NCBI GenBank assembly: GCA_017442825.1
Contig: JAFRYZ010000047.1
Location: 1-45,188 of the forward strand
DNA: 45,188 nt
Origin: Prevotella sp.
GTDB taxonomy: Bacteria > Bacteroidota > Bacteroidia > Bacteroidales > Bacteroidaceae
Reading direction: 5' to 3'
Of the stretch, positions 1,490-43,490 are shown in pieces (the first letter of the stretch is position 1; each line of letters opens with the position of its first letter). The notes beneath the pieces are model-generated. The model saw only the letters and a list, made by a program, of their open reading frames with translations. It was not told the origin of the DNA and searched no databases. Both the position numbers and the translations under genes were made by a program.

Positions 1490-2266
1490 ATGTCATTCAA
1501 GAAGTATTTCATGATTCTCACGGCTGCCGTCTTGCTGTCGAGCACGATGAACGCAGCAGAACAGACAGACTCTATCACACTGAGCATCCAAGCTATGCAC
1601 TGTGGCAAGTGTGTTCACAAAGTCAGTAACATCCTGCGTGCCAACACCGGCATAGAGACCTACACATTCGACGAGGAACGCCGCACGGTATCAGTTGCCT
1701 TCAATCCGCAGCAGACCTGCAAAGACTCTATCATGGCTCAGTTGGCTGCCACCAAGCGCTACATCCCCAAGGTGTATAGTGCCGACGAGGTGATGCCGCG
1801 CACCATCCGCCAGCGTGTTGCCGACATGCATTGCGACAAGTGTGCGCACCGTATTGTCGCCCACTTCACCGCCATGAACGGCATCGACTCCGTAGCTACC
1901 GACACCGAACAACACAACGTGCTGATACGCTACGATGCCAACAAAACGCGCAAGGACTCCATCCGTCAGGCATTCACGGCATTAGGCTTCACGCCGGTCA
2001 ATGTATTGATGCACCACGAAGACCTTGTTCCTGGCATCAGCTATGCCTATCTGAACATTCCTGAAAGTGCTGCCAACGACAACACCGTAGAGGAGTTGAT
2101 GGCTATCGACGGTATTGCCGACGTCTGCGTAAACGCCAAGAAAAAGACGCTTGCCATCACCTATGCCGACAAATATTTCGCCACACCTGATGTCTTGCTC
2201 AAGCAGTTGCGCGAAACAGGTGTGGAAGCAACACTGCCTCCCACGCACCAATGCAAGGAGAATTGA
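1490..2266 (+). CDS. Secreted protein with tandem heavy-metal-associated (HMA) domains
   Basis: A 258-aa protein with a signal peptide (MSFKKYFMILTAAVLL, cleavage near 'MNAAEQ'). Three HMA-like ferredoxin folds follow. The first has MHCGKC (Cys38 and Cys41) and the second MHCDKC (Cys115 and Cys118), the CxxC used to bind Cu(I) or similar soft metals. The third (roughly residues 180-250) keeps the fold pattern but has lost the CxxC. The likely role is periplasmic or envelope metal binding or transfer. I chose the ATG at 1490 over 1469 because it starts directly at a normal signal peptide. A possible upstream start adds seven residues. No copper ATPase or CusB-type partner is adjacent. Confidence 0.72.
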   Translation: MSFKKYFMILTAAVLLSSTMNAAEQTDSITLSIQAMHCGKCVHKVSNILRANTGIETYTFDEERRTVSVAFNPQQTCKDSIMAQLAATKRYIPKVYSADEVMPRTIRQRVADMHCDKCAHRIVAHFTAMNGIDSVATDTEQHNVLIRYDANKTRKDSIRQAFTALGFTPVNVLMHHEDLVPGISYAYLNIPESAANDNTVEELMAIDGIADVCVNAKKKTLAITYADKYFATPDVLLKQLRETGVEATLPPTHQCKEN

Positions 2267-2330
2267 CAATTCATAATTCACAATTGACAATTGACAATTG
2301 ATAATTGATAATTGATAATTGACAATGAAT
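2267..2330. repeat. Degenerate octamer tandem repeat (AATTGACA-type)
   Basis: About eight units of the octamer AATTGACA/AATTGATA fill the gap between the HMA gene and the next secreted protein. The same octamers recur at 4563-4572, 4603-4620 and 20669-20707. They are degenerate rather than perfect. Confidence 0.7.
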
Positions 2331-2363
2331 AATTCTTGCTCTGGCAAGCGCTACGCGATTACA
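2331..2363. repeat. Dispersed repeat, intergenic copy (GCAAGCGCTACGCGATTA core)
   Basis: This 33-base block is identical to 4571-4603, which lies inside the coding sequence of the next gene, and is related to copies at 8161-8196, 38619-38640 and 43131-43164. It is flanked on both sides by octamer repeats. Confidence 0.75.
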
Positions 2364-2392: not shown

Positions 2393-4723
2393 ATGAAGAA
2401 AATCTCTACTTTATTATGGGTGCTCATGGTACTCTTGGCGCTGCCCAAGGCGGCAGGTGCCGCTGAAGTCAGCAACACGTTCGACTTCGAGAACAATCCT
2501 CAGAACTGGCCTGTGGGTGAAGGTATCAACTTTGCCGACGGCAACCTCACTGCTCCGCTGACTGTCGGCGAAGTAACGATGACAGGCATCGACGGCAACC
2601 AGCCCTGCCGTCTGATGAAGGACAACAACGGCATCACATCGCTCTATGTCTATGCCAACGCCAGTGCTGCCGGCGGTTTGAAGTTTAATGCCGCCGAAGG
2701 GCGAGCTATCACTAAGATCGAGGTGACCATGAAAACGGGTAATTTCGACTTCGAAGCTTCCACAGGAACACTCTCCGGCACCAGCTGGACGGGTAATGCC
2801 ACTGAAGTCACCTTTAACCGTACGGGAACAGGCAATCGTACCATGCTGAAGATTGTCGTCACCACCGATGCCAAAAACGAGCAGACCGTCGAGCCTGCTG
2901 CCGAAACCTTCGATGTCGAGGCTGAAAACATCGCTGCCTTCAATGCCGCAGAAGACGGGAAGGTGGTGAAACTGACACTCAGCAACGCCCGCGTAAACGG
3001 CACCTTTAACGGCTACTATGTTGAAGATGCTTCTGGTGCTACCGTCATCAAAGGCATCACCTTAGAAGTAGGAACAGCCCTGAACGGCTACATCATCGGC
3101 AAAAAGAGTACAGACAACAACATCGACTACATGTCGTACGAACCAACTTCTTATGAGCCGCAGCTGACAGCTACCGACGCTTCTACCTTCGAGGCAACGG
3201 AGACGGCACTGGTGGGCACCACCATGTCTATCACGGAAGCCTGCGCACAAGCCACTTACGGCAAACTCGTCACGCTTGAGAATGTCACCATCAGCGGTGG
3301 TGGACAGAACAAGACCCTGACCGACGGCGATGGTAAGACCATGAAGGCCCGCGACTACATGGGCAAGCTCTCCACTGGTTTCACTTGGCCTGAGAAAGCA
3401 GCCAAGATTACGGGTATCGTGATCTACTACATGACAGGATGGTTCCTGATGCCTCTTGGCGATGATGCCATCGTAGAAGAATCCACCTCTGCCCTCTTCG
3501 ACTTCCACAACAACAACCTGGAGATGACTCCTGGAGTGAACGGAACAACTGAAAGTGTCAACGCAGGCAACCTGGAAACGGTGGCTCTCACCAAGGGTGA
3601 TGTCACGCTGACCTTCGTCAGCTCACCCACGATGCCTACCCGCTTCTATGACAATGGTACGCGCGGCTTGCAGCTCCAGCTCATCAAGGACGGACAGATG
3701 CGCGTCACCGCAGCAGAAGGAAAAGCCATCACCGCCATCCGCTTCACCTATAACCTGAGCAAGAACCCCAGTACAGGTGCCGATGTCTATAACACCTCCT
3801 GGGGCGTTGACAAAGGCGAAGGAACCTTCAGCACCGACAAACTGACATGGACGGGTAATGCATCGAGTGTACGCTTCACGGCAACGGGTTCAACCTACGT
3901 TGATGCCATCGAAGTAGAGACGGCTCCTGCTAACGCAGAGACCGTTACTCCTGCCGTTAATGAATATACAACCGAGGTTTCTTCTCTTGCCGACTTCAAT
4001 GCCCTTTCCGACGGCACACTCGTCAAGCTGAACCTCACCGATGCTGTCATCACCAGCGGCATGGTGAACGACTGGGGCTGCTACGTGCAGGATGCCACCG
4101 CTGGTGCTCACTTCTACTGCACTGGTCTCAACTTCAAGGTCGGCGACAAGCTCAACGGCTTCGTCTATGTGAAGAAGAACAAGCAGACGATGGGCAGCCG
4201 CATCGCCATGACTGAAGAAACCAACAGCAACGACCTCACCGTCAGCGAAGGCGGCACCTACACACCAGCTACGGGTTCTATAGCAGAACTCACCATCGAC
4301 GGCAACCTGATGAAGGTCGTCAAACTGACCGATGTCGCCGTCAAGGGAACCAGCGAAACAGCTGCCACCATCACCGATGCCGACAGCAAGACCATCAACA
4401 TCAACAACGGCAAGATCAACTACTTCCCGTATGTCATCCAAGAGAGTCTCGCCGACATTGACTATGCCAAGGCTACTGTCATCGGCATCCTGACCAAAAC
4501 CGGCAGCGGATTCCAGATTATGCCGCTTTCTATCAGCGAAGATATTGAGACGGGCATCGATTCAATTGACAATTCTTGCTCTGGCAAGCGCTACGCGATT
4601 ACACAATTGACAATTGACAATGCAGCCGGCAAATGGTACTCCCTCGACGGTCGTAGGCTGAGCGGCAAGCCGACGCAGAAGGGTATCTATATCGTCAATG
4701 GACATAAAGTGATTGTAAAGTAA
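2393..4723 (+). CDS. Large secreted modular protein with internal duplication and C-terminal sorting-like tail
   Basis: 776 aa with a clear signal peptide (residues 1-23, ending 'AAGAAE'). The mature part is an internal duplication. Residues ~28-160 and ~365-500 both start '(T/L)FDF.NN' and contain 'TWTGNA' or 'SWTGNA', suggesting a beta-sandwich. Each is followed by a segment with 'ADFNALSDGTLVKLNL' or its equivalent, 'YYVEDASG' or 'CYVQDATA', and 'G..LNGY/F', reminiscent of OB-fold extracellular modules. It ends in a Prevotella-type tail 'WYSLDGRRLSGK...GIYIVNGHKVIVK'. Residues ~727-742 are encoded by a dispersed repeat plus octamer repeats. No catalytic residues are evident. A surface binding or adhesion role is an inference only. 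Confidence 0.72.
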   Translation: MKKISTLLWVLMVLLALPKAAGAAEVSNTFDFENNPQNWPVGEGINFADGNLTAPLTVGEVTMTGIDGNQPCRLMKDNNGITSLYVYANASAAGGLKFNAAEGRAITKIEVTMKTGNFDFEASTGTLSGTSWTGNATEVTFNRTGTGNRTMLKIVVTTDAKNEQTVEPAAETFDVEAENIAAFNAAEDGKVVKLTLSNARVNGTFNGYYVEDASGATVIKGITLEVGTALNGYIIGKKSTDNNIDYMSYEPTSYEPQLTATDASTFEATETALVGTTMSITEACAQATYGKLVTLENVTISGGGQNKTLTDGDGKTMKARDYMGKLSTGFTWPEKAAKITGIVIYYMTGWFLMPLGDDAIVEESTSALFDFHNNNLEMTPGVNGTTESVNAGNLETVALTKGDVTLTFVSSPTMPTRFYDNGTRGLQLQLIKDGQMRVTAAEGKAITAIRFTYNLSKNPSTGADVYNTSWGVDKGEGTFSTDKLTWTGNASSVRFTATGSTYVDAIEVETAPANAETVTPAVNEYTTEVSSLADFNALSDGTLVKLNLTDAVITSGMVNDWGCYVQDATAGAHFYCTGLNFKVGDKLNGFVYVKKNKQTMGSRIAMTEETNSNDLTVSEGGTYTPATGSIAELTIDGNLMKVVKLTDVAVKGTSETAATITDADSKTININNGKINYFPYVIQESLADIDYAKATVIGILTKTGSGFQIMPLSISEDIETGIDSIDNSCSGKRYAITQLTIDNAAGKWYSLDGRRLSGKPTQKGIYIVNGHKVIVK
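4563..4620. repeat. Dispersed repeat plus flanking octamers, translated inside a CDS
   Basis: Bases 4571-4603 are identical to the intergenic 2331-2363, and AATTGACA octamers flank it on both sides as in the intergenic copy. Here it is read as residues N-S-C-S-G-K-R-Y-A-I-T of the secreted protein, between the last OB-like module and the C-terminal tail. Confidence 0.75.
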
Positions 4724-6564: not shown

Positions 6565-8259
6565 TTAAAAAGTGCAGCCTACGGCGATAGTTCCTTGCGT
6601 TCGGTCGCAACCGCGAGAATAGAGGAGAGTGCCGTTTGCCTTGCGATGGGAGAGATCGAAGCGCACATGTGTCTTCAGTCGTGTGCCAGGAAATACGAAG
6701 GCGTATTTCACACTACCTCCGACAGCATACTGCGGAGCTGTCAGGTATTGGCATTCGCGATAGAGGAAAACGTCAGCAGTAGCTGGTTGCTCCTGCTTCT
6801 TGCTGGGTGCAACGAAGGTGCCATCGTCATATGGAGCGCCCGTACCTTTACCGAGGGCACCCTTGAGCGAACACGAGAGGATGCCGCAACGAAAAAAGAT
6901 ATTTCGTGTAACACCCAAAACACATTCATAGGCAGAGAGTTTCTGATGACGATAGAACGGGAACAGGTAGTTCAACTGTTCGCGCTGGAACCATTGCCAT
7001 GCTATTTGCAGATTCCAAGTCGGTGTTTCTCCCCTGACGCCGAGGCTGGCAGTATAGACCACCGAAATGTTCTGCAACTGCTTGTCGGCAGTCTCCACAG
7101 GGTCGTAGTACACATAATAAGAAGCGCCCGATGTATTTTTCATCTCACGGAAGGTCTCGGCACGGTTGGCGAGTTTCTCGTTGCGATAGGCGAAGTCGAG
7201 GCGGTGAGAGGGTGTATAGACAAGAGAGAGAGTCACCTCTTTCGTGCGACGTTCGTGTTGCGTGTAGGTGATGGTATAAGGAGACTGACGGCCATAATAG
7301 CCTTTCTCCTTGCCGAAGCCAAAGGTAGCAAGCACCGACAACTGGCGCGAAGCGCGCAGTTCAAGTTGGACGTTGCCATGATGTCCATCCTCAAAAAGTG
7401 GCATCTCACGACTCTTGTCGGTATAGCCTTCGTTGCCGAACTGCTCCCAGGTACCGAAGAAGGCACCGTAGTTGATGAGCGACTTATAAACCTTTTCACT
7501 CTTACCATAAGTGCTGAAGCTGACACTCTCCGTATTGCGGTGGTAGATATAGTTGGCACCGAGATTCAACCACGACAACACCGGTGCATAGCCACCGACT
7601 GAGAACGCCAAGTCCATCAGTTTGTTCTTATGACGCAAGTCCTTGTATTTTGCATAGTTGGCAGCCGTATAGTCGAGACGGGCACCAAGAGCATAGCCAT
7701 GCCACACGTCAACACCTACCCCACCCGACAAACAGTAAGTGTTGCTGTGCTTTCTTCCCTCATTTTCCGTATTCTCCTCTACGATGTCGAAAGGGCGGAG
7801 AGTGGAGAGTCTAGAGTTGAGAGATGAGAGTGGAGAGATGAGAGTGGAGAGTGGAGAGTGGAGAGTTGAAGGCATAAAGACAGAACCCGACATATCGTTG
7901 CCTGAGAAGTTGTCGTAAGCTATGCTACCAAAGACCACTGTGCGACGACTCAGTCGGTAGAAGGCTTCGGCAGTGGCATCAAACTGAAATACACTTGGTG
8001 AACCGTCGTAGTTGACGAGTCCCCCACCCTGTCTGCTCAGCGACAGCTCAGCCTCAGCAATATTCGGTGCCGAGAAGCGTGTTAGTGCTGCCGCATTGCC
8101 TTGTGTCAGCCACGGGTCGCTGCTTTTGACGAACTCATAGTTGCGCACCATCAGCGAGTCTTGCGCCGCTTCGCTCTGCAAGCGCTTCGCGGTTACTTGC
8201 GCCGAGGAAACGTAGAATGGCAAAAGCGTGAAAACGAAAAAAAGGATATGCTTCTTCAT
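6565..8259 (-). CDS. DUF6850-type outer-membrane beta-barrel protein
   Basis: 564 aa from the ATG at 8259, which opens a signal peptide (MKKHILFFVFTLLPFYVSSAQ). An in-frame upstream ATG at 8289 lies within the preceding gene. The body has alternating aromatic/polar strands ('GYALGARLDYTAANYAKYKDL', 'SVGGYAPVLSWLNLGANYIYH') and ends in a strand finishing in Phe ('GTIAVGCTF'), as in outer-membrane barrels. Assignment to DUF6850 rests on these features and on its neighbours (DUF4876, TonB-dependent receptor). Two oddities: residues just after the signal peptide (VTAKRLQSEAAQD) are encoded by the dispersed repeat, and a Ser/Leu/Pro-rich stretch is encoded by ten heptamers. Confidence 0.72.
   Translation of the reverse strand: MKKHILFFVFTLLPFYVSSAQVTAKRLQSEAAQDSLMVRNYEFVKSSDPWLTQGNAAALTRFSAPNIAEAELSLSRQGGGLVNYDGSPSVFQFDATAEAFYRLSRRTVVFGSIAYDNFSGNDMSGSVFMPSTLHSPLSTLISPLSSLNSRLSTLRPFDIVEENTENEGRKHSNTYCLSGGVGVDVWHGYALGARLDYTAANYAKYKDLRHKNKLMDLAFSVGGYAPVLSWLNLGANYIYHRNTESVSFSTYGKSEKVYKSLINYGAFFGTWEQFGNEGYTDKSREMPLFEDGHHGNVQLELRASRQLSVLATFGFGKEKGYYGRQSPYTITYTQHERRTKEVTLSLVYTPSHRLDFAYRNEKLANRAETFREMKNTSGASYYVYYDPVETADKQLQNISVVYTASLGVRGETPTWNLQIAWQWFQREQLNYLFPFYRHQKLSAYECVLGVTRNIFFRCGILSCSLKGALGKGTGAPYDDGTFVAPSKKQEQPATADVFLYRECQYLTAPQYAVGGSVKYAFVFPGTRLKTHVRFDLSHRKANGTLLYSRGCDRTQGTIAVGCTF
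7797..7866. repeat. Heptanucleotide tandem array inside an outer-membrane protein gene
   Basis: Ten contiguous 7-base units based on GGAGAGT/TGAGAGT (three identical in a row at 7846-7866). On the coding strand they give a run such as 'STLHSPLSTLISPLSSL'. Because 7 is not a multiple of 3, gain or loss of a single unit shifts the frame. Confidence 0.85.
8161..8196. repeat. Dispersed repeat copy in the DUF6850 gene
   Basis: Bases 8161-8194 match 43131-43164 at all but three positions (TTGCGCCGCTT, then CTCTGCAAGCGCTTCGCG, then RTTA), and share the GCAAGCGCTWCGCGRTTA core with 2341, 4581 and 38640. Here the reverse strand codes for V-T-A-K-R-L-Q-S-E-A-A-Q. Confidence 0.75.
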
Positions 8260-8273
8260 TGTTCTATGTTCTA

Positions 8274-9593
8274 TTAACGGAGCGAGCATTTTGCACGTTC
8301 ATGGAAATCATTGGAAGAGTTGTTGGTATCTTGAAAGATGATGTGCGCCCCCTGTTTCATAGATGCTTCAGCATCAATGCCGCTGGGATCGGTAGAACCA
8401 TCCACGCCCAAGGTGTAGTTATAGACCAGCTTACCCTCGTTCTCTGGCAGCGCTTCTGTTGCCGCCTTATCGACATTGCGATAGAGCGTATGTCCCTGAT
8501 AGTTGGTCAACCAGACGTAGCCGGCATCGACATCTGCCGTGAGCCGTTTCACGCTGCTGTCCTTATAACCTGCAGAGAACACCTCTACGGCATCGACAAT
8601 CCAATCGACAGGTGCCTTGACGCACAACCACGTCTGTAGGTATCGTCCACCATCATACCAGTAGTTATCTGTATTTGAGATATAGTCAGCCGGTGCAACG
8701 TCCTTCGTTTGGAACAAGACCAATGCTGGTGATGTGACACTCAGTGCCCAGCCGTTGCCCAAACCATAGCGTACGGCTTTCAAGTAATGGCTGGTGGGGA
8801 TGGCTCTGGCTGGTGTGGGATAATAACTGGTATGGGTGTACCCGCTCTCTGGGTCGTACATACAGTAATAATCCGCATTGGCATAGTTCACCGAGTTGCT
8901 GACGGTCTTCGTATTGTCGATGGCACCATGAACATTGATGACCACCTGCGTATAAGGTTCCAGCTCCAAGGTGGAAGGGAAATACCAGATGCCGTTCCAA
9001 AGCGGAATGAAACCTTCCTTTTCGTAGGTCAGTTTGCCGTCTTCACCATAGTTGTAGTTTTGCGATTGGGCATTAGAGGGCGTAGCCTCACCGATGCAGA
9101 GGTTGCTCAGACTTGCCTTTTGGTCGCTGTTGTTATAGAGGATGATGCATTTGTCGTACTGGAATTGCGTGACGCCGTCGTCAGCACGACAGCCTCCGTT
9201 ATACAGTTCTTTGATGATGATTTGACTGACACGGGCTGTCTTCATGGTGATAGCCACGGGAAGCGATGCGTTACCTGTCACCACCAACTGTCCAGAAGCA
9301 CCATTGTAGCTGTAGGCAACACCCTCCTTCGCACGTTTTCCTGTAGCCGTAGCCTCGTAAATGCCAGGAGAGACGGTAAAGGTAGCTACGCCCTGAGCAT
9401 CAGACTGTTGTACATAGACACTATTGGTTGACGTATTGCGCAACTGCACTTCTATGCCTGCCAGGTTGTCGTCGCCCGTCAAGGTTACGAAGACCTCGCC
9501 CAGCGAGACGTTACCCTGCGGGTGGTCGAAGATGTTGTCGTTGCAAGAGGTCAGTAACAGTACAATGGCAATAATGGGGAAATATCTTTTCAT
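8274..9593 (-). CDS. DUF4876 family lipoprotein
   Basis: 439 aa with a lipoprotein signal: MKRYFPIIAIVLLLTSC puts the lipobox Cys at 17, so the protein should be anchored at the outer membrane. An N-terminal carboxypeptidase-regulatory-like Ig fold (residues ~25-115, 'GDDNLAGIEVQLRNTST', 'GVATFTVSPGIYEATATG') is followed by the DUF4876 region beginning 'QIIIKELYNGGCR', with 'DKCIILYNNSD' and 'ANADYYCMY', which resembles the lamin-tail style beta fold. It starts 4 bases after the TonB receptor stop, so the two are translationally close. It is probably the lipoprotein partner of that receptor, in place of a SusD, which is absent. The ligand is unknown. Confidence 0.78.
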   Translation of the reverse strand: MKRYFPIIAIVLLLTSCNDNIFDHPQGNVSLGEVFVTLTGDDNLAGIEVQLRNTSTNSVYVQQSDAQGVATFTVSPGIYEATATGKRAKEGVAYSYNGASGQLVVTGNASLPVAITMKTARVSQIIIKELYNGGCRADDGVTQFQYDKCIILYNNSDQKASLSNLCIGEATPSNAQSQNYNYGEDGKLTYEKEGFIPLWNGIWYFPSTLELEPYTQVVINVHGAIDNTKTVSNSVNYANADYYCMYDPESGYTHTSYYPTPARAIPTSHYLKAVRYGLGNGWALSVTSPALVLFQTKDVAPADYISNTDNYWYDGGRYLQTWLCVKAPVDWIVDAVEVFSAGYKDSSVKRLTADVDAGYVWLTNYQGHTLYRNVDKAATEALPENEGKLVYNYTLGVDGSTDPSGIDAEASMKQGAHIIFQDTNNSSNDFHERAKCSLR

Positions 9594-21601: not shown

Positions 21602-22042
21602 TCAACTCTCGTTCGAACTTGCCTGCACCAACGGTTCTATCACAGCAAGCGCACGCTCATGCTTGGCAACGATATGCCAATGCCCCCCTGCACGTCCACG
21701 TTTCAGGTTGTGCCGCAGGTCATTGTATTTCACGCGTATGGCAAGTTGGTTGTCCGATGCTGCTATGCGTTTCACATAATCCTCGTAGTTCATCCCCTCA
21801 TCGCGCGTCAACAGCCGCAACGCATCGACAATAGAGGCATCGACTCCCCGTTGCAGCAGGTCGTCGAATGTCCAGTCGCTGTCCTCCACCACATCGTGCA
21901 ACAGACCAGCCACCTGCTCCTCGCGGTTGTGTCCTAGCAATGCCACCGCCATCGGATGCAGAATCACCGGCTTCCCGTCCAAATCCTTCTGCCCCTCATG
22001 CGCCTCCAGTGCAATCCGCAAAGCCTCTTCTACTGTTATCAT
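21602..22042 (-). CDS. HD-domain phosphohydrolase, alarmone-hydrolase-like (MESH1/SpoT-HD type)
   Basis: 146 aa. It matches the hydrolase half of RelA/SpoT: 'AHEGQKDLDGKPVILHPMAVA' (metal-ligand His), 'AGLLHDVVEDSDWT' (HD and ED pairs) and 'VKYNDLRHNLKRGR' (equivalent to KLADRLHN). No synthetase, TGS or ACT domain is present, so it is a small stand-alone enzyme, possibly hydrolysing (p)ppGpp or related nucleotides. It heads an operon with the secreted nuclease, an odd pairing. An 8-bp hairpin lies in its short leader. Confidence 0.83.
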   Translation of the reverse strand: MITVEEALRIALEAHEGQKDLDGKPVILHPMAVALLGHNREEQVAGLLHDVVEDSDWTFDDLLQRGVDASIVDALRLLTRDEGMNYEDYVKRIAASDNQLAIRVKYNDLRHNLKRGRAGGHWHIVAKHERALAVIEPLVQASSNES

Positions 22043-36620: not shown

Positions 36621-36706
36621 TAAAGAATATATGAAAAAAAAGAATACCTATCTTTTTTTTTATTTGAACACATGTTTGTTCTACATAAACAGAAGAATTA
36701 TCTGGC

Positions 36707-36732
36707 TTTTCCCTCGCTTAATCGTAGCTTTG
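36707..36732 (+). promoter_or_regulatory. Upstream copy of the rlmN promoter
   Basis: TTTTCCCTCGCTTAATCGTAGCTTTG nearly repeats the downstream rlmN promoter (36791-36816). Its -7 is TAGCTTTG (36725-36732), but a TTG at -33 is lacking. Confidence 0.45.
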
Positions 36733-36786
36733 ACTTCGCCGAAGGCACTTCCGCTTGGGAATAAAAATAAAAAGCAAGCTTTCTTT

Positions 36787-36816
36787 TTGTATTTCCCTCG
36801 CTTAATCGTACCTTTG
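36787..36816 (+). promoter_or_regulatory. Promoter of rlmN
   Basis: TTG (36787-36789), a 19-base spacer and TACCTTTG (36809-36816). The start of transcription would be about 12 bases before the ATG at 36835, ruling out the much longer frame from 36493. Confidence 0.75.
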
Positions 36817-36834
36817 CAGCGTAAAAAAAAGAAT

Positions 36835-37923
36835 ATGGCGGAAAGAAAACAAAAGCTGTTAGGAATGACGATTACCGAACTGAAAGAGGTGGCGGCAATG
36901 TTAGGCATGCCTGCCTTTACGGGTGGTCAGATAGCACAATGGCTCTACAACCGTCATGTGACGAGTATCGACGAGATGACCAACATCTCCAAGGTGAACC
37001 GCGAACGGCTAAAGGAACATTATGAGATAGGAAGCTACAAGCCTCTAGATGCCCAACGCTCCATAGACGGCACTGTCAAATACCTGTTTCCTGTGTGCGG
37101 CGAGGATTCGGAACACACCGAAGAATTGGATTCTACCAGATATTCCGTGGGAGCAAACAAAAAGTTTGTTGAAACCGTTTATATCCCCGATGGCGACCGC
37201 GCCACGTTGTGTGTATCGTGCCAGGTAGGCTGCAAGATGAACTGCTTGTTTTGTCAGACGGGTAAACAAGGATTTGATGGCAATCTCAGCGTTGCTGATA
37301 TCCTGAATCAAATTTATGCGCTACCAGAATGGGATAAGTTGACAAACATCGTCTTCATGGGGCAAGGTGAGCCGATGGACAACCTTGACAACGTACTTAA
37401 AGCAACGCAGATTCTTACGGCTGACTATGGTTTTGCATGGAGTCCTCGGCGCATCACCGTCAGTTCTGTTGGCTTAAAAGGTAAATTGAAACGATTTATT
37501 GAGGAGAGTGACTGCCACGTGGCTATCAGCATGCATACTCCCCTGCCCGAACAACGTGCACAACTGATGCCGGCAGAACGGGGAATGAGCATTACCGAGA
37601 TTGTGGACATGTTGCATCAATATGACTTTGCCCACCAACGACGACTGACTTTCGAATACATCGTATTCGGGGGTGTCAACGACTCGATGGCACACGCACG
37701 CAGCATCGTCAATCTGCTACGCGGGCTGGACTGTCGCATTAACCTCATACGCTTTCACCAAATTCCTGACGTGCCGCTGAAGGGGGCTTCCCAGGAGAAA
37801 ATGGAGGCGCTGCGCGACTACCTGACACACAACGGCATCACGACAACTATTCGCGCCAGTCGTGGACAGGACATCTATGCCGCCTGCGGACTGTTAAGTA
37901 CAAAGAAAAAACAAAGGGATTGA
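36835..37923 (+). CDS. rlmN: Dual-specificity rRNA/tRNA adenine-C2 methyltransferase RlmN (radical SAM)
   Basis: 362 aa. It methylates C2 of A2503 in 23S rRNA and A37 of some tRNAs. The radical-SAM cluster is Cys133-x3-Cys137-x2-Cys140 ('CKMNCLFC'). The catalytic cysteines are Cys126 ('ATLCVSC') and Cys351 near the C-terminus ('RGQDIYAACGLL'). 'FMGQGEPMDN', 'VSSVGLKGKLKRF' and 'VAISMHTPLPEQRAQLMP' are conserved family blocks. An in-frame extension to 36493 exists upstream but is crossed by the promoter and antisense to the GT2 gene. The DUF4837 gene starts 2 bases after its stop. Confidence 0.95.
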   Translation: MAERKQKLLGMTITELKEVAAMLGMPAFTGGQIAQWLYNRHVTSIDEMTNISKVNRERLKEHYEIGSYKPLDAQRSIDGTVKYLFPVCGEDSEHTEELDSTRYSVGANKKFVETVYIPDGDRATLCVSCQVGCKMNCLFCQTGKQGFDGNLSVADILNQIYALPEWDKLTNIVFMGQGEPMDNLDNVLKATQILTADYGFAWSPRRITVSSVGLKGKLKRFIEESDCHVAISMHTPLPEQRAQLMPAERGMSITEIVDMLHQYDFAHQRRLTFEYIVFGGVNDSMAHARSIVNLLRGLDCRINLIRFHQIPDVPLKGASQEKMEALRDYLTHNGITTTIRASRGQDIYAACGLLSTKKKQRD

Positions 37924-37925
37924 CT

Positions 37926-38930
37926 ATGCGCAACCAATATATCCTTGCGTTTATTCTCTTGCTCGTAGCCTGCACGGAAAATAACAGGAGAGGACTGCCA
38001 GAAAGCACTGGAAAGCCATACGAGGTGTTGATTGTCGCCGAATCGGTAGCAGCAGGGAAAAGCGTGGCTACCCTATTGGCTACTCCCGTCGAGGCCCTGC
38101 CGCAAAGGGAACCACAATTCGACGAATCGTTCTGCCATCGTAAGAAATTCGATGCCATGCGGCAACTGGCACGTAACATCATCATCATAGACGAAAATAA
38201 AAAACTTTATACCCGCACGACCATACGCTTTGACCGCGATGTTTATGCAGCACCGCAAATAGTGATACACATACAAACGCCCCACTTACAAGCACTGGAA
38301 CAAGCGATGATGCGTGGAAAAGCTGGAAAGGAACTGCTCTCGCTACTGAACAGACACGAACTGACAATACAAAAGAAACGATTGGAAAGAGAACACAACC
38401 CGAAAGCGGAGGAACGAATACGCCAGATGTTCGGCATCGAGATGCTCATTCCTTCCAATATGCTGGCAAGCAAAGAGGGCAAAGACTTTCTCTGGTTGTC
38501 GAACAATGCCAATACGGGCATGCAGAACATCTGCCTCTTCCGTTCGGAAAAGATAGACAGCGTTCTGAAGGCGAACATCAAAGGAGAAAAGGACGAAATG
38601 TATATGAGAAGGACGAAGGTAACCGCGAAGCGCTTGCCAGAGACCTCCGCGAAGCGCCTGAGCACCCGCTCGAACTTGTTCGCTTGCCAAAGCAAGAACG
38701 GAGCGCAAGAAGAACTAGGTAACGAAACCGTAACCATCCAGCGCGGACTATGGGAAATGGTTGGCGATGCTATGGGAGGACCTTACGTGGCCCGCACGTT
38801 GTATCTTCCTACTCCGGGAAAAGAATTGCAAGCTGGCGTTTTCACCATCTTTACCTTCGTCTATGCTCCAGAAAGTACAAAACGGAACAAAATGCGGCAA
38901 TTGGAAGCCGTACTATATACCATTAAATAA
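37926..38930 (+). CDS. DUF4837 family lipoprotein
   Basis: 334 aa from the ATG at 37926 (a TTG at 37920 is the alternative and would overlap rlmN). It is a lipoprotein: 'MRNQYILAFILLLVAC' with the lipobox Cys at 16. Family look: 'LPESTGKPYEVLIVA', 'QREPQFDESFCHRKKFD', 'RNIIIID' and 'RGLWEMVGDAMGGPYVART'. Between the 'LFRSEKIDSVLKANIKGEKDEMYM' segment and 'ETVTIQRGLWEM' is an extra block (KVTAKRLPETSAKRLST...) encoded by tandem copies of the dispersed repeat. Its role is unknown. It is likely translated with rlmN (2-base gap) and followed closely by pdxA (11 bases). Confidence 0.82.
   Translation: MRNQYILAFILLLVACTENNRRGLPESTGKPYEVLIVAESVAAGKSVATLLATPVEALPQREPQFDESFCHRKKFDAMRQLARNIIIIDENKKLYTRTTIRFDRDVYAAPQIVIHIQTPHLQALEQAMMRGKAGKELLSLLNRHELTIQKKRLEREHNPKAEERIRQMFGIEMLIPSNMLASKEGKDFLWLSNNANTGMQNICLFRSEKIDSVLKANIKGEKDEMYMRRTKVTAKRLPETSAKRLSTRSNLFACQSKNGAQEELGNETVTIQRGLWEMVGDAMGGPYVARTLYLPTPGKELQAGVFTIFTFVYAPESTKRNKMRQLEAVLYTIK
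38619..38710. repeat. Tandem degenerate dispersed-repeat copies inside the DUF4837 gene
   Basis: GTAACCGCGAAGCGCTTGCC (38619-38638) is followed by a second copy TCCGCGAAGCGCCTGAG (38646-38662) and a partial one CGCTTGCCAAAGCAAGAAC (38681-38699). The first gives the peptide VTAKRL, as in the DUF6850 protein, and the second gives SAKRLS. All are in frame. Confidence 0.72.
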
Positions 38931-43113: not shown

Positions 43114-43130
43114 TTCAAATCAGGTACTTC

Positions 43131-43164
43131 TTGCGCCGCTTTACTCTGCAAGCGCTTCGCGATT
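43131..43164. repeat. Dispersed repeat, intergenic copy
   Basis: Nearly identical to 8161-8194 in the DUF6850 gene and sharing the GCAAGCGCTTCGCGATTA core. It lies between secG and the tRNA-His promoter. Confidence 0.72.
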
Positions 43165-43198
43165 ATCGCCCGGCAAATAAAAAAAATCCGATTTTTCT

Positions 43199-43270: not shown

Positions 43271-43344
43271 GTGCCCGTAGTTCAGTTGGTTAGAGCGTCA
43301 GATTGTGGTTCTGAATGTCGTGGGTTCGAGTCCCACCGGGCACC
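43271..43344 (+). tRNA. tRNA-His (GTG anticodon)
   Basis: The cloverleaf is complete: acceptor GTGCCCG/CGGGCAC; D stem GTTC/GAGC; anticodon stem TCAGA/TCTGA with loop TTGTGGT giving anticodon GTG; T arm GTGGG-TTCGAGT-CCCAC. The base before it (G, 43270) can serve as G-1, opposite C73, the identity element of His tRNA. The CCA end is not fully encoded (CCAA follows C72, so the terminal CCA is presumably added by enzyme). Confidence 0.95.
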
Positions 43345-43351
43345 CAACAGA

Positions 43352-43490
43352 AGACATCGCCGAAAGGCAATGTTTTTTTTTTGTGAGAAGTCCCTTCGAA
43401 CGAAAAGACATCGCCGAAAGGCAATGTCTTTTTTTGTGAGAAGTCCCTTCGAACGAGAAGACATCGCCGAAAGGCAATGTCTTTTTTTTA
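43352..43490. repeat. Three tandem ~53-bp units, each with a terminator-like hairpin
   Basis: The hairpin GACATCGCC-GAAA-GGCAATGTC followed by seven or more T occurs at 43353-43380, 43406-43435 and 43459-43489. The units are 53-54 bases apart and share AGTCCCTTCGAACG between them. They terminate tRNA-His transcription, and the last unit reaches the end of the convergent GH28 gene. Confidence 0.85.

Follow-up and report, generated by a model that had tools for sequence, protein, structure and literature searches.

A probably mobile family of very short double-hairpin repeats in a Prevotella genome, with copies in frame within conserved genes

Short repeats built as two adjoining hairpins are dispersed through the Prevotella genome studied here (2.31 Mb in 69 contigs, 79% complete), and we consider them, at a probability of roughly 0.8, to be one family of structured mobile repeats, non-coding and very small. 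As no mobilising enzyme was found, mobility is inferred from distribution and from empty sites in relatives only. The family came to notice in the window, a stretch of 45,188 nt, for which a preliminary description listed five copies. All five match the core GCAAGCGCTWCGCGRTTA with 0 mismatches (2344, 4584, 8178 and 43148 on the forward strand, 38620 on the reverse), while shuffled windows held on average 0.07 exact cores and reached five in 0 of 100 trials. The placement of the copies at 2344 and 43148 between genes, and of the copy at 4584 inside a third gene, is also correct. The repeat is real, but the 18-22-base core lies within a longer unit, of 27 nt at two of these places and 36 nt at two others (Table 1). 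Nor is the motif confined to the loci first listed: at up to 2 mismatches it has 86 matches genome-wide (41 forward, 45 reverse; 55 exact cores), and the reversed pattern has 0.

Table 1. Repeat units and related features in the window
Feature	Position	Strand	Context
27-nt unit CTTGC-TCTG-GCAAG / CGC-TAC-GCG / ATTA	2335..2361	+	Intergenic, within heptad arrays; also in UBA2746
Heptad array ATTGACA / ATTGATA / ATTCATA	2262..2334	+	Left of the 2335-2361 unit; similar heptads rightward to about 2390
27-nt unit, in frame	4575..4601	+	Near C terminus of 776-aa ORF 2393-4723; peptide CSGKRYAIT
Heptads CAATTGA / CACAATT	4562..4620	+	Both sides of the 4575-4601 unit, translated in frame too
36-nt unit CTTGC-GCCGCTTCGCTCT-GCAAG / CGC-TTC-GCG / GTTA	8160..8195	+	Antisense to DUF6850 gene 6565-8289 (-)
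Site without the two adjoining elements (about 113 nt) that UBA2746 has	21605..21622		
Composite (nested) element	38614..38711	-	In frame, DUF4837 gene 37920-38930; outer unit 77 nt, 38620-38696
36-nt unit	43130..43165	+	Intergenic, upstream of tRNA gene 43271-43344

The unit starts with CTT, ends with RTTA, and reads CTTxx-loop-xxAAG, then CGC-TNC-GCG, then RTTA. Among the 86 copies it is 27 nt long in 32, 36 nt in 15, 39 nt in 10 and 42 nt in 6; most fall between 27 and 42 nt, and the longest is 84 nt. A length divisible by three was considered as an adaptation and rejected, since 27, 36, 39, 42, 69 and 84 fit and 26, 28, 37, 76, 77 and 83 do not. Immediately left of the unit stands TT in 74 of 86 copies, and immediately right of it C or G in 81; nested and head-to-tail copies also occur. 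Five loci (L002, L030, L037, L039 and L069) have a common left context upstream of the unit, '...gagcgtgagtacctt' or a near variant, a recurrent intergenic sequence that is perhaps another repeat.

For structural work we used 103 distinct copies, defined by the 16-base tail AAGCGCT[TA]CGCG[AG]TTA at up to 2 mismatches in stretches fetched around the genome matches. Several different heads precede this common tail, and most begin with CTTxx and end with xxAAG, forming a first stem of 5 bp. This stem is detected in 87 of the 103 copies and undetectable in 16; 200 trials with shuffled upstream sequence gave a mean of 12.3 and a maximum of 24. Its pairing was also tested on classes gathered by their long loop rather than by the stem, which avoids circular pair finding. 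Among the 12 copies of the 39-nt class so gathered, 6 have C-G and 6 have T-A at pair 5, with no mismatch; among the 14 of the 36-nt class, 12 have G-C and 2 have T-A at pair 4, and pair 5 is mismatched once. Two more long-loop classes (n=9 and n=6) are fully paired and invariant. Classes with 4- or 5-nt loops show pairing, by position, in only 22/34, 15-21/25 and 4/7, because so short a loop anchor also catches unrelated places. The sequence of stem 1 differs between classes while its pairing is kept, and the changes within the 39-nt and 36-nt classes are compensatory.

The second hairpin is more uniform. Its triplet, in 77 copies of the genome's own, is TTC in 45, TGC in 13, TAC in 10, TTT in 7 and something else in 2, and 68 of the 77 thus fit TNC, which may be read as a GNA triloop. 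The oligonucleotide d(GCGAAGC) is a specially stable DNA hairpin; the seven copies with TTT keep the triloop reading at the level of a hint. The CGC/GCG stem is itself nearly invariant, so that its support comes from a few variant stems, CGAC/GTCG in seven copies (RTTA following in six) and CGGC/GCCG in one (with RTTA). A scan for a CTTxx hairpin with a directly adjoining second hairpin gave 122 matches against 10 in the reversed sequence; in about 25 of the 122 the second stem is of an AATT type, which we read as neighbouring heptads. Predicted DNA folding energies are unremarkable (z from -1.95 to +0.33), and the double hairpin as drawn is the best fold in just 5 of 10 folded strands.

Many copies are embedded in tandem arrays of seven-base repeats. 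Over 87 copies, identity at lag 7 is 0.418 in the left flank and 0.388 in the right, against 0.255 in random pieces of the window; lags 14 and 21 are raised too, every other lag from 2 to 20 is at background, and the right flank carries on the left heptad in phase (0.514). A heptad flank exceeds a strict 99% control in 33 of 86 copies (1.4 expected), and neither flank does in the other 53. The heptads differ in sequence (GACAATT, GAGAGTT, CCGTGTT, CTTTGAC and others). Of 149 other genomes sampled in the genus, 52 have GACAATT arrays at up to 1 mismatch and 4 have the exact repeat core (one or two each, five in total, which is close to the reversed control of 1), so the heptads are the wider phenomenon. 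The in-phase flanks suggested a 7-bp target duplication, which we dropped as a general rule because both heptads are already present in the empty relative at the one base-exact site (below). Among the non-heptad sites, however, 9 of 53 have at least 5 of 7 flanking bases alike, against about 1.8 expected.

Two relatives, UBA2746 and UBA4339, were compared with the genome place by place; their identity to the window is regional, 95-96% in places and roughly 65-91% elsewhere. UBA2746 was compared over 0.76 Mb (overlaps counted), where synteny extends to both sides of 17 of the 103 copies: 15 are absent, one is present and one is unreadable (N). Synteny is scant in the L195 region of C63 and in most of UBA4339. 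The bulk of the comparisons draw on a single relative, in many cases at a nucleotide identity of 70-85%, and only the 4575-4601 site is base-exact. At that site the joined flanks are intact in UBA2746; the difference is therefore exactly the 27-mer, in a coding frame and without target duplication, and a separate difference of 30 nt follows just downstream. The lack of a target duplication and the intact joined site, both at this one place, also set the repeat apart from a MITE. Fmt differs between the two genomes by 48 nt, which we read as the 27-nt unit plus three heptads, and the Fmt of UBA2746 already has heptads; HemW in UBA2746 has heptads at the place of the unit, and in MutY a block that includes the copy is missing. 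The DUF4837 and 43148 copies are absent as well, in alignments that are not clean. For 9 of the 15 absent copies (7 places) the empty interval holds a heptad array above 99% of 200-nt control pieces, three of the intervals being longer than such a piece. In the reverse direction, UBA2746 has the two adjoining elements near 21605 that are absent from the window. The direction of change is judged from copy numbers, and single losses may have occurred in UBA2746. Apart from this family, a separate dispersed repeat of about 120 nt lies at about 36700-36822 of the window; over 30 places match it, almost all of them belonging to UBA2746, with identities of about 69-94%.

The arrays invite a different account, in which the repeat is passive cargo of the heptads, copied by slippage, strand annealing or gene conversion between arrays with no dedicated enzyme. 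Arrays do flank many copies in phase, they exist in those 52 other genomes and at the seven empty places in UBA2746, the Fmt element came with a gain that fits three extra heptads, and neither a Y1 transposase nor a reverse transcriptase was found in the genome under study. Yet the heptads around one and the same unit can be unrelated (GACAATT, GAGAGTT, CCGTGTT, CTTTGAC) and offer scant homology for annealing; the unit also occurs in non-heptad DNA and head-to-tail behind its own RTTA, and at 4575-4601 an exact 27-mer makes the difference with the heptads unchanged on both sides. We regard passive copying as possible though somewhat unlikely, and favor a mobile repeat.

The preliminary description held that a mobile repeat should be missing from some orthologues of its host genes. 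For DUF4837 this is so: the peptide (AKRL) is in 0 of 26 readable orthologues (29 loci were read, three of them, L091, L097 and L099, in the wrong frame). The DUF6850 copy is common to UBA4339 (96% identical) but absent from UBA2746 at a syntenic place of about 74% identity. Neither of the two refutations proposed in that description, a confined motif or a peptide in all orthologues, is borne out. With the 2344 copy shared by UBA2746 and the DUF6850 copy by UBA4339, not all copies are young.

Outside the genus sample, an exact double-stem scan of a genome collection of 84,980 species, from which records of the source genome or very near ones may be absent, returned 47 stretches in 23 assemblies, against a chance expectation of about 0.4 by our own arithmetic. 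All are titled as Bacteroidota groups and none of the 47 stretches has a cyanobacterial title; the match in Flammeovirgaceae (L146), inside a gene, looks like chance. A viral collection gave no exact match of the repeat. Copies at up to 1 mismatch number 37 in RGIG9197, 15 in RUG12681, 6 in UBA2746 and 2 in UBA4339; because reversed-pattern controls gave 5 across the 23 genomes, those with one or two copies may owe them to chance. Exact cores number 4 in UBA2746 and 1 in UBA4339, compared with the 55 here, and we infer that the copies arose mainly through insertion in the lineage of the genome under study. RGIG9197 has units in tandem with period 26. Of its copies at L118, L120, L144, L145 and L147, several stand within an inverted repeat that flanks them on the outside (GACGCT...AGCGTC, or nearly so), while others follow a hairpin, for example AACCCC-AGC-GGGGTT. 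These surroundings suggest a larger compound element.

A metagenome bin in 69 contigs at 79% completeness might be suspected of producing such repeats by misassembly. The DUF6850 copy is, however, base-identical in the independently titled assembly UBA4339, the repeat is present in Xylanibacter ruminicola Ga6B6, whose title is not marked MAG, and in 22 other assemblies, and the ORFs remain open across all 14 genic copies. The repeat can hardly be an artefact of assembly.

That a dispersed palindromic repeat lies in frame within unrelated proteins is borne out. Forty of the 103 copies are in open frames of at least 120 codons, and 14 were accepted as genic, 13 by the Pfam family of the gene and one (the 776-aa ORF) by a relative. 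The hosts are an Omp85 protein, this ORF, DUF6850, DUF4837, HemW, TrmO, a class A beta-lactamase-like protein, topoisomerase I, Fmt, cardiolipin synthase, MutY, AroB, AsnB, and the Pfam SBD_N/NBD_C gene, which we take to be a DUF1537-type kinase. The other 26 copies, in ORFs with no domain or relative in support, are not counted; a Pfam scan of six of these ORFs found no family in L012, L038, L042:3276-4076, L043 and L064, and in L070 a family downstream of the copy. Supported in-gene copies are thus a minority (14/103), and most copies appear to be intergenic.

The peptides first described are also as stated: VTAKRLPETSAKRLS starts at 38619 in the DUF4837 frame, and VTAKRL is in the DUF6850 gene, near the N terminus, after an apparent signal peptide and before the Pfam match. 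The repeat block in DUF4837 stands, but what had been seen as three tandem copies is one composite, at about 38614-38711. Beside a perfect core it contains CGAAC-AA-GTTCG, a hairpin of another kind, and at 38648 a core with 2 mismatches, which taken alone is indistinguishable from chance (9 matches against 7.1 expected for a 14-base core at up to 3 mismatches). The composite recurs, whole or in part, at five other fetched places in the genome, L035, L064, L290, L047 (68 nt) and L031 (48 nt). Through the nested element, in frame in both, DUF4837 and a GH106 rhamnosidase have 25 identical residues in common, TSAKRLSTRSNLFACQSKNGAQEEL. The rhamnosidase (L290:3704-4573) bears an in-frame mosaic of about 70 residues, made of the nested element, a second unit and heptads.

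When aligned to solved structures, AsnB, topoisomerase I and TrmO show the repeat block as inserted sequence; in Fmt it splits the two domains, and in AroB it falls where the alignment is gapped. The structures solved for MutY and DUF1537 do not reach the copy. The AsnB insert peptide is in 0 of 18 aligned orthologues (drawn from 29 relatives' loci, partial or distant ones omitted). Five of the 18 (G027, G019, G029, G011, G002) have other extra residues at that point, so the loop is permissive, and it seems to accept foreign peptide repeatedly, with different short insertions in other genomes. A second block of about 10 residues in AsnB (L063), near SPDKGTTAEEHQ, is absent in 18 of 18 aligned orthologues; the repeat was not seen in it.

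How readily the unit can be translated depends on its class. Four to five of six frames are open in both 27-nt classes and in the 36-nt class with a TTC loop, three to four with a TAC loop, three to four in the 39-nt unit and two in the 42-nt unit. The reverse-strand frame beginning with TAA is closed in all classes; the Fmt and cardiolipin synthase copies are read in this frame and have TGA for TTA in the tail, which removes the stop. Three further copies with a TGA tail are in ORFs with no accepted support. An excess of GTTA over ATTA in genes (8/14 genic against 36/103 overall) is not claimed.

Could the copies instead be a regulatory or terminator-like RNA element, kept by selection at many genes and not selfish? 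Their mostly intergenic position would suit this, as would their orientation, which relative to the gene is alike in 12 of the 14 genic copies (two-sided p = 0.013, for a set assembled after the fact). But the repeat is absent at those 15 of 17 syntenic places in UBA2746, occurs nested and in tandem and stands within core enzymes, Rfam 15 at gathering score yielded only a tRNA in four sources (the window, L053, L066 and L119), and by eye no T-run follows the second hairpin in the copies listed. We hold this explanation to be very improbable. Behind the tRNA gene of the window, at 43345-43490, are about three tandem terminator-like units (gacatcgccgaaaggcaatgtct with a T-run, then gtgagaagtcccttcgaac), an observation of its own.

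Among known systems, one candidate is the REP-like element, which a Y1 tyrosine transposase mobilises (RAYT or IS200/IS605 TnpA). PMC3116915 and PMC3733652 depict REP and REPIN as small, palindromic, interspersed and high in copy number, with some inside ORFs, as here; REPs inside ORFs (PMC3733652) and the RPE of Rickettsia (PMC2229807) are precedents for in-frame repeats. The size, the hairpins, the lack of target duplication, the short fixed neighbour sequence and the occasional in-gene copies all agree with a REP-like element, and RGIG9197, with its 37 copies, has 5 Y1_Tnp matches. Against it, Y1_Tnp has 0 matches at E up to 0.1 in the genome under study (which at 79% completeness is not final), none in UBA2746 and UBA4339, and one below cut-off in RUG12681 with its 15 copies, while 33 of 60 genus genomes have Y1_Tnp above cut-off without a burst of the repeat. 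The GTAG or CGTC tag, sought within 4-6 nt of an end, is in 0 of 86 copies, and the embedding in heptads is a further difference from REP and REPIN as those papers portray them. Movement by a Y1 enzyme is therefore unlikely in our judgment. The reverse transcriptase family RVT_1 has no match in the genome under study (79% complete) and one each in UBA2746 and UBA4339.

The preliminary description had drawn an analogy with the RPE of Rickettsia. As PMC2229807 and PMC3733652 describe them, RPE are 105-146 bp long with 12-bp terminal inverted repeats, occupy 19 reading frames, and include two types, RPE-4 and RPE-6, that are CGTC-tagged REPs. The analogy holds for a dispersed palindromic repeat, in frame in conserved proteins and also intergenic, but the identity does not: the Prevotella unit is mostly 27-42 nt (84 at most) against 105-146 bp (PMC2229807), and has two separate hairpins and no tag. 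Heptamer direct repeats such as TAACTGA are recorded in Beggiatoaceae, cyanobacteria and five Bacteroidetes (PMC4679880); the arrays are of the same kind in their seven-base period, their mostly intergenic position and their occurrence in Bacteroidetes, and differ in their heptad sequences, and no structured insert is named in the passages compared. In the open-licence literature we found no description of this repeat family in Prevotella or other Bacteroidota.

The closest likeness is to another phylum. Nostoc punctiforme reportedly carries small dispersed repeats of 21-27 nt, in families that differ in sequence but are predicted to fold into a common secondary structure, with compensatory changes; the repeats are reported to be embedded in tandem heptamers, with nested copies, mobile without a known enzyme and confined to some lineages of one phylum. 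By this description we read the Prevotella repeat as probably working like the Nostoc repeats, and not like RPE or RAYT-linked REP. Here too 27 nt is the commonest length (32/86) in a family with 86 genome matches; pairing is compensatory, though the folding z-scores are weak; the copies stand in tandem heptads (lags 7, 14 and 21 only; 33/86 by the strict threshold) and may be nested, no mover was found, and the family is limited to some lineages of one phylum. The differences are the host, which is in Bacteroidota rather than cyanobacteria, a modular first hairpin with loops that vary up to units of 84 nt, and the in-frame copies in core genes. The Nostoc repeats are cited (Elhai et al. 2008, Genome Res 18:1484) in PMC3116915.

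As to mechanism, a single-stranded copy, either DNA exposed at replication or RNA, would fold into the double hairpin and be recognised through its shape and tail, not its loop. Joining would take place at TT^S, and heptad arrays rich in A and T would supply such targets in abundance. Genic copies would persist where the frame and a surface loop permit, which several unit lengths that are multiples of three, and the classes with 4 to 5 of 6 frames open, may ease. The moving enzyme may be lost, lie outside the assembled 79%, or be of another kind than Y1 or RVT. The clean 27-nt difference next to TT, a recognition that seems to go by shape and tail, and the head-to-tail copies would fit a single-stranded intermediate. 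Joined into one speculative picture, which we think rather unlikely to hold as a whole, the 27-nt double hairpin would move in trans through a single-stranded copy, of DNA or of RNA, and leave no target duplication, the mover being a class of enzyme that has so far no known link to repeats. The heptad arrays would be a further part of this system, left behind or lengthened as insertion, loss and slippage recur at TT^S, and hairpin and arrays together would seed short new peptide loops in the core proteins of Bacteroidota.

To our knowledge the Prevotella repeat would rank among the smallest mobile elements. It makes an old question testable in gut bacteria, namely how some 27 nt can spread with no transposase in sight. 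For annotation it calls for caution, as peptides common to unrelated Prevotella proteins can derive from the repeat. And its copies in topoisomerase I, Fmt, AroB, AsnB, TrmO, HemW, MutY, the lipoprotein and the rhamnosidase form a natural series of in-frame peptide insertions, a chance to watch new protein segments arise.
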